Both the position numbers and the translations under genes were made by a program. Positions 25,506-38,212 of a stretch of 40,584 bases of DNA are shown here, piece by piece. The DNA comes from Kangiellaceae bacterium. Lineage in GTDB: Bacteria > Pseudomonadota > Gammaproteobacteria > Enterobacterales > Kangiellaceae. The stretch spans positions 1-40,584 of the forward strand of contig JADGFG010000014.1 in assembly GCA_016743995.1 (NCBI GenBank). Reading direction: 5' to 3'. Numbering within the stretch: position 1 is the stretch's first letter; each line of letters begins with the position of its first letter. Under the pieces are notes generated by a model that searched no databases, was not told where the DNA came from, and worked only from the letters and a program-made list of their open reading frames with translations.

Positions 25506-25754
25506 ATGAAAGATAAGAATGACATTTTTAATTGTTTGTCAGACATTCTGGTTGAAGAATTTGAAGTTGACAGAAATGAAATCACTTTAGATGCACAGTT
25601 ATATCAGGAGCTTGATCTGGACAGTATTGATGCAGTTGACCTTGTTATTAAATTGCAGGAATTAACAGGCAAAAAAATTGAACCTGAAACATTTAAATCA
25701 GTAAGGACAATTAGCGATGTTGTTAACGCGGTAGATGAACTTATCGCCGTTTAA
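25506..25754 (+). CDS. apeF: Acyl carrier protein 2 (ApeF-like)
   Basis: An 82-residue ACP with the phosphopantetheine serine Ser40 in ELDLDSIDAVDLV. Its sequence is only moderately similar to the first ACP (82 residues each, with divergent N-termini), so it is not a recent duplicate. The stop TAA at 25752-25754 overlaps an ATG (TAATG) and is in the first unit of a 16-base tandem repeat that fills the gap to the next gene. Confidence 0.9.
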   Translation: MKDKNDIFNCLSDILVEEFEVDRNEITLDAQLYQELDLDSIDAVDLVIKLQELTGKKIEPETFKSVRTISDVVNAVDELIAV

Positions 25755-25811
25755 TGAAATCAGCGCTTAATGAAATCAGTGTTTAATAAAGTTAATACTT
25801 AATGAAAATCA
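25748..25811 (+). repeat. 16-nt tandem repeat x 4 spanning the apeF-apeG junction
   Basis: Units start at 25748, 25764, 25780 and 25796, without indels (CGTTTAATGAAATCAG, CGCTTAATGAAATCAG, TGTTTAATAAAGTTAA, TACTTAATGAAAATCA). The first contains the apeF stop, the last contains the apeG start. Three of four units contain the stop-start overlap TAATG. Confidence 0.9.
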
Positions 25812-26362
25812 TATTTAAACTATTAGCTATTTTACTGGTTGTCACTTACCCACTAATCGTTTTTTTTGGACTGAGTGTTTTTGAACCAGGAATCATTGCT
25901 ATATTTTTAATTGTAATCATTTTACTCCGGCTGATTTCTTTTCAGTCGGCTTCTGGCGTGAGCAATTTTAAAAGTGTTATCGTTGTTTCGCTTGCAGGAG
26001 GGCTTATTGCTGTTTTTACTTTAATCAGTAACTCTATTTATGGGTTAAAATTATACCCGGTGCTGATTAATTTTTCGATGTTGGTATTATTTGCTTATAG
26101 TTTAACTGCAGAGCAAACAATCATTGAAAAAATCGCTCGAATAAAGGAACCTGATTTACCAATAGAAGGGGTGATATATACCAGAAAAATCACCTGGATC
26201 TGGTGTTGTTTTTTTATCTGTAATGGACTTTTTTCGTTGTATACTGCGCTATATACCAGTATAGAGTTCTGGACCATATATAATGGTCTGGTGTCTTATA
26301 TCATTATGGGGGCTCTTTTGGGTGGCGAGCTACTCTATCGAAGTCTGGTTTTGCAAAAGTAG
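25802..26362 (+). CDS. Polytopic inner-membrane protein of the aryl-polyene operon (ApeG-like, COG4648)
   Basis: A 186-residue protein with about five to six membrane helices (IIFKLLAILLVVTYPLIVFF, then segments near residues 27-42, 55-73, 78-96, 137-156 and 160-180) and few charged loops. The only sizeable loop has KIARIKEPDLPIEG. Position between the ACP and the aryl ligase matches a conserved unknown membrane protein in this cluster type, which I recall as COG4648. Function is unknown; a scaffold for the assembly proteins is conceivable. The start overlaps an upstream TAA as TAATG. Confidence 0.75.
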   Translation: MKIIFKLLAILLVVTYPLIVFFGLSVFEPGIIAIFLIVIILLRLISFQSASGVSNFKSVIVVSLAGGLIAVFTLISNSIYGLKLYPVLINFSMLVLFAYSLTAEQTIIEKIARIKEPDLPIEGVIYTRKITWIWCCFFICNGLFSLYTALYTSIEFWTIYNGLVSYIIMGALLGGELLYRSLVLQK

Positions 26363-34840: not shown

Positions 34841-36095
34841 AAATCAACAAGACAAACCGTTAAACACAACTGTCGTTACCACCGATGTATTAATTATTGG
34901 CGCTGGTCCTTCGGGCGCGCTGGCATCATCAATATTAAATAAAAATAATATTGATGTGCTGGTGATAGAAAAACAAAAATTTCCACGCTTTTCAATTGGA
35001 GAAAGCTTATTACCTCAGTTAATGAACAACCTGAAACAGGCCGATTTACTGGCCACTGTTGATGCTGCCGGTTACCAGTTAAAAAATGGTGCGGCGTTTC
35101 GAAAAAATGGGGATTACAGCGTCTTTAATTTTGAAGATAAATTTTCTGCTGGTGCCGGCACGACTTATCAGATTAAGCGAGCGGAGTTTGATAAGCGTCT
35201 CGCCGATGAAGTGGAGAGTCAGGGTGTCGATATTCGTTATGAGCAAGAGGTTATTGCGGTTGAGGTTTTAGCGGACTGTTGTCAGGTGCGAGTACGTGAT
35301 GTTGAAGGGAAAGAGTACACCATTGAGGCGGGTTTTATCCTTGATGCCAGTGGATTTGGCCGAGTATTACCCAGGTTGTTTGATCTGGAGCTGCCTTCAG
35401 ACCTGCCAGTAAGACAGTCTATATTTTGTCATGTGAAGGATAATATTGTTGATGAACATTATGACCGGGATAAAATATTGATTAGTGTACACCCGGAAAA
35501 CGATAAAGTCTGGTACTGGCTTATTCCTTTTTCAGATGGAACCTGTTCGTTGGGTGTGGTGGGTGAACCTGAATTTTTCGAGAATATCCCCGGTGATAAT
35601 AAAGACAAGTTATTTGCCTGTGTTAATGCAGAACCTGATTTATCTCGCTTGCTGGTTAATGCGGAAGTGACTACTGAAGTCGAACAACTTCAAGGCTATT
35701 CTGCAAATGTTAAACAATTACATGGCTCTCGTTTTGCTTTGTTAGGCAATGCCGGTGAGTTTCTGGATCCGGTTTTTTCATCGGGTGTGACGATTGCATT
35801 TAAGTCTGCTGAGCTGGCTACTTCATTGTTAGTTAAACAAAAGAATGGAGAAACCGTATGTTGGCAGAAAGATTATGCAGACGCTTTAATGAAAGGCGTT
35901 GATACTTTCAGGGCTTTTGTTAATGCCTGGTACGATGGCCGTTTACAGGATATCATTTTTTATGAAGATGCCTCAGCAGAAGTCAGACAAATGATCTGTG
36001 CTATTCTGGCTGGATATGCGTGGGATGAAACTAATCCCTATGTCTCAAAGCCTGAAAAACGTTTGAATGTACTGGCTGAAATATGCAAAAAATAA
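34827..36095 (+). CDS. FAD-dependent oxidoreductase, flavin halogenase/geranylgeranyl-reductase-like
   Basis: A 422-residue flavoprotein. The FAD motif IIGAGPSGALA is at about 23-33, RFSIGESLLPQL follows at 54-65, and VWYWLIPFSDG near residues 228-238 contains the WxWxIP pattern typical of flavin-dependent halogenases. The C-terminal FAD loop reads LLGNAGEFLDPVFSSGVT. No residue known to me settles whether it halogenates, hydroxylates or dehydrogenates. Position inside the aryl-polyene operon suggests tailoring of the aromatic head or the chain. Brominated polyenes are known from the related xanthomonadins. It overlaps the next gene by 13 bases. Confidence 0.8.
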   Translation: MRTDKNQQDKPLNTTVVTTDVLIIGAGPSGALASSILNKNNIDVLVIEKQKFPRFSIGESLLPQLMNNLKQADLLATVDAAGYQLKNGAAFRKNGDYSVFNFEDKFSAGAGTTYQIKRAEFDKRLADEVESQGVDIRYEQEVIAVEVLADCCQVRVRDVEGKEYTIEAGFILDASGFGRVLPRLFDLELPSDLPVRQSIFCHVKDNIVDEHYDRDKILISVHPENDKVWYWLIPFSDGTCSLGVVGEPEFFENIPGDNKDKLFACVNAEPDLSRLLVNAEVTTEVEQLQGYSANVKQLHGSRFALLGNAGEFLDPVFSSGVTIAFKSAELATSLLVKQKNGETVCWQKDYADALMKGVDTFRAFVNAWYDGRLQDIIFYEDASAEVRQMICAILAGYAWDETNPYVSKPEKRLNVLAEICKK

Positions 36096-36733
36096 TTATT
36101 TTATTTTTTGTTTTTTTTATTTCGGCCTGTTTTAAGCCTGCAATATCAGTGAAAGATACACAGGCGCCGGGTCGAGTAGACAGTGCCACTAAAAAAGTAA
36201 CACTGGCACCTGGCGTTGTATTTCGATTATTACCTCCCGCCAGTTTTGGTAAAAATGTTTCACTGAGTCAGACCGCTGAAATCGCTTTTAACGGTGAACA
36301 ACATGAACTGGTATTTCAAACAGAAATATCGGCAGAAAAACTTGTGGTCGTCGGATTACGACCTGATGGTATGCGTTTGTTTACTATTGTTTACGACGGT
36401 AAAAGTATTTCTACTGACGGGGTTGGAAAAGCCATTGATAATATTAAGCCTTTGTATCTGCTTGCTGATATGCAGCTTTCTTTATGGCCAGTCGAGGTCT
36501 TGCGTAAGGAATTAGAGAACAATTCTGACTGTTTCCGGTCAGGCGTATGTAGCCTGCTTAGCGGCTCGAACCCTGGTCTGTTTCCTTTTTCGCGGCAGCT
36601 GCTGAATGATGATAAGGTTGTCATCTCAATTCAGTATAAAGGTCAACCAGGCTATTCTCATGGTTTAAATTATCATCATTTATTACGAAATTATAAACTG
36701 GTTATTTCACCTTTTGCCGTAGAGAGTCTTTAG
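36083..36733 (+). CDS. apeN: DUF3261-type lipoprotein of the aryl-polyene operon (ApeN-like)
   Basis: A 216-residue lipoprotein. The signal peptide MQKIIILFFVFFISAC ends in the lipobox ISAC, placing lipid on Cys16. The mature protein has beta-rich segments (VVFRLLPPASFGKNVSL, QHELVFQTEISAEKLVVVG) and ends in KLVISPFAVESL. DUF3261 lipoproteins are regular members of aryl-polyene operons and probably act at the outer membrane, but their activity is unknown. Its stop codon is in the first unit of the 13-base tandem repeat that fills the gap before apeO. Confidence 0.8.
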   Translation: MQKIIILFFVFFISACFKPAISVKDTQAPGRVDSATKKVTLAPGVVFRLLPPASFGKNVSLSQTAEIAFNGEQHELVFQTEISAEKLVVVGLRPDGMRLFTIVYDGKSISTDGVGKAIDNIKPLYLLADMQLSLWPVEVLRKELENNSDCFRSGVCSLLSGSNPGLFPFSRQLLNDDKVVISIQYKGQPGYSHGLNYHHLLRNYKLVISPFAVESL

Positions 36734-36851
36734 CAAGACTATTTAACGAGACTATTGAGCAAGGCGATTAAACAAAAGTATTTAGCAGTGTTGCTTAACG
36801 AAAGTGCTTAACGAAAGTGCTTAACGAAAGTGCTTAACGAAAGTGCTTGGC
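36722..36851 (+). repeat. 13-nt tandem repeat x 10 filling the apeN-apeO gap
   Basis: Ten contiguous 13-base units with no indel start at 36722 and run every 13 bases. Units 7, 8 and 9 are identical (GAAAGTGCTTAAC), unit 10 differs at two bases, and units 1-6 are increasingly diverged toward apeN. Unit 1 holds the TAG stop of apeN at its positions 10-12. Units 2 and 5-9 have TAA or TAG there, and units 3 and 4 have TGA or TAA one base earlier. Confidence 0.92.
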
Positions 36852-36860
36852 GAAAAATTT

Positions 36861-38069
36861 ATGACAGATAATAAAAAAATATACTTAAGCCATCTGGGGC
36901 TGGTCAATGCGCTCGGTTTTGAGCATCAGATGATTTACGATAATATGCTTAAGGGTTTTTCTCCCGGTATGGGAAAAATCAGTTCGCCGCTTCATGGAAA
37001 AACATTTTTTGCAGGTGAGGTGACGGCTGATTTGCCCCAGGTTCCCAGTGAGTTAAGTTTATATGATTGTCGTAATAACCGACTGGCGCTGGCTGCTGTT
37101 AATCAGATTAAACCGGCCATTGAGCGTTTAAAGCAAAAGTTCGGCGGTGATAGAATTGGTGTGGTGATGGGAACCAGTACTTCCGGTGTTGCCGAGGCGG
37201 AGCAGGCTTTTGTGAGTTTGCATAATGAGGCAGAATTTCCCGAAAAATTTCACTACAAGCAACAGGAAATGGGCAGTTTATCAAAATTTTTAGCAAGCTA
37301 CCTCGCATTAGAAGGACCCTCTTATGTGATATCTACCGCTTGTTCATCCAGTGGTAAAGTGTTTGCCTCTGCCAGAGGTTTGATAGCGCTGGGGGTCTGT
37401 GACGCGGTTATTGTGGGCGGTGTAGATTCTTTATGTGAAATGACCCTCGCCGGGTTTGCTTCACTGGAAGCGGTATCAGATGAGCTGACAAATCCTTTTA
37501 GCGTTAACAGAAAAGGGATTAACATTGGTGAAGCTGCGGCGATATTTGTGATGACTCAATCTACCGAGCCAGACTCTGAAGCCATTGAATTATCAGGTGT
37601 TGGAGAGTCCTCAGACGCACATCACATGTCTGCACCAGACCCGGAAGGTAAAGGGGCGGTCAGGGCTATTCAGGCTGCGCTGGTTGATGCACAATTGCAG
37701 CCAGAGGCTATTGATTATATTAATCTTCATGGCACAGGGACTCAGCTTAATGACATAATGGAAAGCAAAGCGGTTTCTATGGTGTTTGGTGATAATGTTC
37801 CCGTTAGCTCAACTAAACCCCTGACCGGGCATACTTTGGGGGCCGCTGGTGCGACTGATCTGGCGCTTTGCTGGTTGCTGATGAAAAATCAGGCCTGTTC
37901 TGGCATTCCTCATCGCTATGATGGGTGTGATGACCCGCAGTTAAGTCAAATTCGACTTTGTCGAGAAAATGCAAATGAACAGGAAAATCCTGTTAGCATT
38001 TGCATGAGTAATTCTTTTGCTTTTGGCGGGAATAATGTGAGCGTGATTATCCAGAGGTCTGCTTCGTGA
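36861..38069 (+). CDS. apeO: Beta-ketoacyl-ACP synthase, FabF-type (ApeO-like)
   Basis: A 402-residue active ketosynthase with the full triad: Cys161 in STACSSSG, His290 in LHGTGTQLND and His324 in TGHTLGAAG. It would extend the polyene with malonyl-ACP and pair with the Cys-less ApeC as length factor. I place the start at ATG 36861 (MTDNKKIYLSHLG). An in-frame GTG at 36843, inside the last 13-base repeat unit, would add six residues, and neither start has a clear ribosome site. The stop is followed at 38101 by a second array of tandem repeats. Confidence 0.9.
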   Translation: MTDNKKIYLSHLGLVNALGFEHQMIYDNMLKGFSPGMGKISSPLHGKTFFAGEVTADLPQVPSELSLYDCRNNRLALAAVNQIKPAIERLKQKFGGDRIGVVMGTSTSGVAEAEQAFVSLHNEAEFPEKFHYKQQEMGSLSKFLASYLALEGPSYVISTACSSSGKVFASARGLIALGVCDAVIVGGVDSLCEMTLAGFASLEAVSDELTNPFSVNRKGINIGEAAAIFVMTQSTEPDSEAIELSGVGESSDAHHMSAPDPEGKGAVRAIQAALVDAQLQPEAIDYINLHGTGTQLNDIMESKAVSMVFGDNVPVSSTKPLTGHTLGAAGATDLALCWLLMKNQACSGIPHRYDGCDDPQLSQIRLCRENANEQENPVSICMSNSFAFGGNNVSVIIQRSAS

Positions 38070-38100: not shown

Positions 38101-38212
38101 CGGAAATCATAAAGCAGAACTGATAAAGCAGAAATGATAAAGCGGAAATGATAAAGCGGAAATCACAAAGCAAGAACGATAAAGCAGGAATGAAAAAAAA
38201 GAATGAATGAAC
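38101..38212 (+). repeat. 14-nt tandem repeat x 7-8 in the apeO-apeP gap
   Basis: Units of 14 bases without indels start at 38101, 38115, 38129, 38143, 38157, 38171 and 38185, with an eighth, weakly matching unit at 38199. Consensus is CRGAAATGATAAAG, with TGATAA double stops in several units. The eighth contains the ATG start of apeP. The stop of apeO is also followed by TGATAAC, a plausible source of the motif. Confidence 0.88.

Follow-up and report, generated by a model that had tools for sequence, protein, structure and literature searches.

The 13-bp tandem array that separates apeN from apeO in the genome of a Kangiellaceae bacterium (GenBank assembly GCA_016743995.1) is very probably a noncoding slippage minisatellite that was seeded on the last codons and the stop codon of apeN and grew in a formerly tight operon junction. 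The array is real, and its cause is most likely an ordinary one. The sequence analysed (hereafter the window; 40,584 nucleotides) is one entire contig, JADGFG010000014.1, of an assembly of 4.68 Mb in 326 contigs. In the window, apeO is followed by genes for an ApeP-like dehydratase and then a short-chain reductase, and the gene set matches, as expected, that of an aryl-polyene-type cluster. The mechanical start of the apeO open reading frame (ORF) is an in-frame GTG at 36843, inside array copy 10; the start of the gene is most likely the ATG indicated by the orthologues (Table 1).

Table 1. Genes, spacer and tandem arrays of the operon, with positions in the window.
Feature	Coordinates	Strand	Description
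16-mer array, four drifted copies	25751..25818	+	Spans the junction between the 25506-25754 gene (from its stop) and the 25802 gene (to its start)
apeN	36083..36733	+	ORF, 216 aa, DUF3261 protein (Pfam PF11659, E 1e-24)
13-bp tandem array, ten copies	36722..36851	+	Indel-free; copies 7-10 near-identical (GAAAGTGCTTAAC), copies 1-6 degenerate
Array copy 1	36722..36734	+	GAG AGT CTT, the TAG stop of apeN and one base; stop aligned with that of A. coralliicola apeN
apeN-apeO spacer	36734..36860	+	127 nt, from the apeN stop to the apeO ATG
apeO	36861..38069	+	Ketosynthase-like protein; most likely start ATG 36861, chosen by alignment to orthologues
14-mer array, 6.8 copies	38103..38197	+	GAAATGATAAAGCA; fills the apeO-apeP spacer (133 nt); unrelated to the 13-mer

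The array consists of ten contiguous 13-mers, and its self-match at lag 13 is 0.68, compared with 0.15-0.39 at lags other than multiples of 13. The even spacing and the age gradient that had been described from the window alone were thus both borne out. Copies 7-9 are identical (GAAAGTGCTTAAC), whereas copies 1-6 match them at only 5-9 of the 13 positions; copy 10 differs at two positions. The near-identical block has a Tandem Repeats Finder (TRF) score of 114, and a period of 26 bases fits the degenerate half as well. Arrays with a score of at least 50 occur at a chance level of ~0.2 per 100 kb in shuffled DNA of the same genome, and the contiguous head-to-tail copies, as expected of a minisatellite, are well above this level. 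The array had been said to make up the whole spacer, which is nearly correct: copy 1 lies inside apeN, and nine bases follow copy 10. A two-unit pattern search with up to three mismatches found no second place for the unit in the genome, and no DNA match was found in Escherichia coli genomes.

Array copy 1 encodes the C-terminus of ApeN (E-S-L-stop), with the natural stop at 36731-36733. In the nearest relative found, Aliikangiella coralliicola, the apeN-apeO spacer is 15 nt long and non-repetitive (TGAGTGAGCAAAACG), and the junction is the same in G002, a genome of the same genus, and in NZ_ML660163.1 (A. coralliicola M105). This agreement places the genus at Aliikangiella or its GTDB equivalent. 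The apeN products align to their last residues (VISPFAVESL in the window and KISPLAIEEF in A. coralliicola), as do the beginnings of the apeO products (MTDNKKIYLS and MTENTYYLA, respectively), so that the apeN stop and the apeO start occupy the same aligned positions with a gap of 127 nt in one and 15 nt in the other. In genomes G005 and G028, the two genes overlap by 8 nt, and the remaining orthologous junctions examined are all short and contain no visible array. The search of the genus covered seven genomes, the nearest with a 64% identical apeO, and the species itself is represented by one genome. Because the junctions in relatives are 15 nt long or 8-nt overlaps and the gene ends are aligned alike, the array is, on these alignments, a lineage-specific insertion. 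A 13-nt stretch of the A. coralliicola junction matches array copies 3-4 at 11 of 13 positions (P = 0.016 in one test, picked post hoc), and the seed of the array may also have included part of the old spacer in addition to the apeN end.

Copy 1 is the likely seed of the array. Replication slippage would have produced a tandem duplication of the 13-nt segment from the apeN tail into the junction, carrying the apeN stop along, and further growth would have led to ten copies in what had been a tight junction. Recent expansion or homogenization at the apeO end would have left the copies near apeN as the older and drifted ones. The stops in the copies would then descend from the apeN stop and, because the array segment is untranslated, would be tolerated rather than selected. 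The original prediction offered an expanding stop codon region as one of two readings, and this one is supported: copy 1 is the 3' end of apeN, with a stop conserved in A. coralliicola, and the others read as its copies. The observations underlying this origin are the array itself, the conserved positions of the apeN stop and apeO start, the short and non-repetitive junctions of the relatives, and the many arrays of this kind in the genome.

In total, 120 arrays were identified in 993 kb (TRF; period 7-40, score of at least 50), or 12.1 per 100 kb compared with 0.2 in block-shuffled DNA, in a non-random sample of ~1 Mb of the 4.68 Mb in which contigs were taken by number. Genes were defined by a simple longest-ORF caller. 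Among the coding arrays, 43 of 53 have a unit length that is a multiple of three, against only 21 of 67 intergenic ones, which means that unit length is filtered only inside genes and is free outside them, as in minisatellites; the intergenic periods are mostly 14-18 (44 of 67). Co-directional, divergent and convergent spacers contain 30 arrays in 64 kb, 15 in 36 kb and 13 in 18 kb, respectively. The arrays are therefore not tied to translation junctions and show no preference for co-directional ones, their numbers being roughly proportional to spacer length and somewhat higher in convergent spacers. The apeN-apeO array is ordinary for this genome.

Among same-genus samples, which also consisted of non-random contigs, array densities per 100 kb were 6.5 (G002), 4.7 (G005), 7.1 (G004) and 4.1 (G001). 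The sampled contigs of G028 and G030 gave 0 and 1.7, respectively. The density in the sample of the present genome (L035-L074, L195-L234 and the window) is about twice that of the sampled same-genus relatives. G009, a genome of the same family (contigs L249-L250), contains 8 arrays in 60 kb (13.3 per 100 kb), a density similar to that of the present genome, and the samples of G028, G030 and G011 contain 0 or 1 array each. Several contigs (L049, L053, L054 and L065) begin or end in arrays, and the repeats may thus break the assembly; assemblies from short reads can also collapse arrays. No literature text on tandem repeats in Aliikangiella was found.

Two further junctions of the same operon carry arrays. 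Most units of the 14-mer array contain ATGA or a near variant, and the fold of the RNA of its spacer is at z = +0.49. The copies of the 16-mer array repeat a stop-start overlap of the TTAATG type (TTAATA in copy 3), which gives the appearance of a duplication of the junction itself. Both neighbouring arrays are also able to form start-stop chains. That one operon carries arrays at three of its junctions might point to local selection and was counted against a slippage origin, as was the borderline retention of stops described below.

The other reading in the original prediction was a selected three-frame barrier, in which selection would maintain the stops to keep ribosomes from reading into apeO, whether from apeN or in any frame. 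Nine stop-bearing copies were indeed found, although their distribution is not eight in place and a ninth within one base: the triplet occupies unit positions 10-12 in seven copies (1, 2 and 5-9) and positions 9-11 in copies 3 and 4, and copy 10 has none (CTTGGC). The stop in copy 1 is the natural stop of apeN, so that eight spacer copies bear extra stops. A stop is thus present near the same place in eight of the nine copies from 2 to 10, and, 13 not being a multiple of three, all frames are stopped. However, the stop columns are not more conserved than the other unit columns in this array. Columns 10, 11 and 12 are conserved in 8, 9 and 6 of 10 copies, respectively, and the only fully invariant columns, 9 and 13, are both outside the triplet. 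Retention of the stop in copies 2-10 gave p = 0.28 under the strict definition and a borderline p = 0.05 when one base of slack was allowed; the null takes no account of shared descent and, by overstating independence, favours selection. Moreover, the spacer contains 8 stops, fewer than the mean of 10.2 in its shuffles, and the three-frame property needs no explanation because all three frames are stopped in 92% of the shuffles. Unit stop content is also at chance level across the genome: among the 30 co-directional arrays, 27 have stop-containing units when read forward, 27 in reverse and 26.6 after shuffling. Unrelated, non-repetitive spacers in relatives with the same genes had been named in advance as evidence against a barrier, and the relatives' junctions proved to be short and non-repetitive. 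None of them has or needs a barrier, and apeN and apeO overlap in several, so that the orthologous junctions largely refute it. With column conservation, stop counts, genome-wide unit controls and relatives' junctions all against it, the barrier is unsupported and is the least probable of the explanations considered.

A termination-reinitiation relay, in which ribosomes would pass along tiny overlapping ORFs from the apeN side to apeO, is very unlikely. From copy 6 on, the units contain a GTG five nt before a TAA (GTGCTTAA), and short ORFs form an unbroken chain that begins at TTG 36755 and reaches apeO, the last one ending at TAA 36869 and overlapping ATG 36861. In favour of a relay, the ancestral junctions are overlaps, and repeats with coupled short ORFs have been reported before, in the mycobacterial interspersed repetitive units (MIRUs; PMC12548453). 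The first start, however, is 21 nt beyond the apeN stop, copies 1 and 2 are startless, and the older half of the array contains no start codon except this single TTG. Self-propagating chains are also no commoner than in controls (12 forward, 11 reverse and 10.9 shuffled among the 30 co-directional arrays), and reinitiation drops sharply at distances of this kind (PMC10666635). In experiments with E. coli and Haloferax, gaps of ~20-40 nt largely abolished termination-reinitiation, although a weaker distance dependence has been reported by other work (PMC10666635). It is equally improbable that duplication of a stop-start junction let the spacer grow with a usable start and stop in each copy, ribosome hopping keeping apeN and apeO coupled despite the 112-nt insertion. 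Under the slippage origin, by contrast, a likely side effect is that the 127-nt gap weakens the termination-reinitiation coupling of the two genes. Given this gap and the weak ribosome site of apeO (-1.9 kcal/mol), apeO would initiate largely on its own. The lack of a clear ribosome site had been pointed out for apeO, and the weakness is real, but apeN (-2.0) and some other genes of the operon are similar in this respect.

Direct repeats that bind a protein or an RNA and thereby control apeO, a role like that proposed for the TAACTGA repeats of Beggiatoaceae, are a further and hardly more credible alternative than the barrier. The array does closely precede a start codon whose ribosome site is weak, as in PMC4679880. 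However, its unit is found at no other site in the genome, the units at other junctions are unrelated to it, and the array is absent in relatives. No Rfam match was found, and the RNA fold of the apeN-apeO spacer is unremarkable and at chance (z = -1.08). No terminator-like match was found inside the spacer, and a nearby promoter-like match is on the opposite strand and does not rise above the level of shuffles. A dispersed repeat family was rejected, the unit having no second place in the genome.

Bacterial minisatellites, or intergenic VNTRs, consist of head-to-tail noncoding units of ~10-20 bases with a frame-free length, have a homogeneous core and a degenerate flank, and are lineage-specific. 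The apeN-apeO array is alike in all these traits, including its absence from orthologous junctions (15, -8 and -8 nt in A. coralliicola, G005 and G028, respectively), and sequence tests on one genome of the species would place it in this class. A copy number that differs among strains is a further defining feature of minisatellites and the hallmark of slippage. It differs in that its seed includes the stop of the upstream gene, so that the units inherited a stop. The tandem repeats of Borgs (PMC9879509) similarly form many independent arrays, with genic units divisible by three and intergenic units mostly not, but they are perfect, A-enriched and located on giant archaeal extrachromosomal elements, whereas the older copies of the apeN-apeO array have drifted. 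The TAACTGA repeats of marine Beggiatoaceae (PMC4679880) are also intergenic direct repeats, and their unit carries stop codons and has a length that three does not divide. These repeats lie a short distance before start codons, which are often without a ribosome site. They represent, however, one fixed 7-mer in ~170 sets, whereas in the present genome every array has a unit of its own and the 13-mer, rather than recurring at many intergenic sites, was found only in the apeN-apeO array at up to three mismatches. A contig of a Thiomargarita MAG (L164) bears a relative of apeO, Beggiatoaceae being the group with the TAACTGA repeats. MIRUs are likewise short repeats of co-directional junctions able to hold short ORFs, but they are apparently mobile and insert at start codons with a -4 nt coupling (PMC12548453), in contrast to the apeN-apeO array, which is a single locus and appears to have grown from the apeN end.

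These results call for caution in the interpretation of phased stop arrays, which need no selection where slippage arrays abound in the genome and the unit includes an upstream stop. The apeN-apeO array might be of use as a marker for strain typing. The apeN-apeO junction is a naturally occurring example of how a minisatellite opens up a junction between operon genes that overlap or lie close together, and it could be used to study how an operon tolerates the loss of translational coupling.
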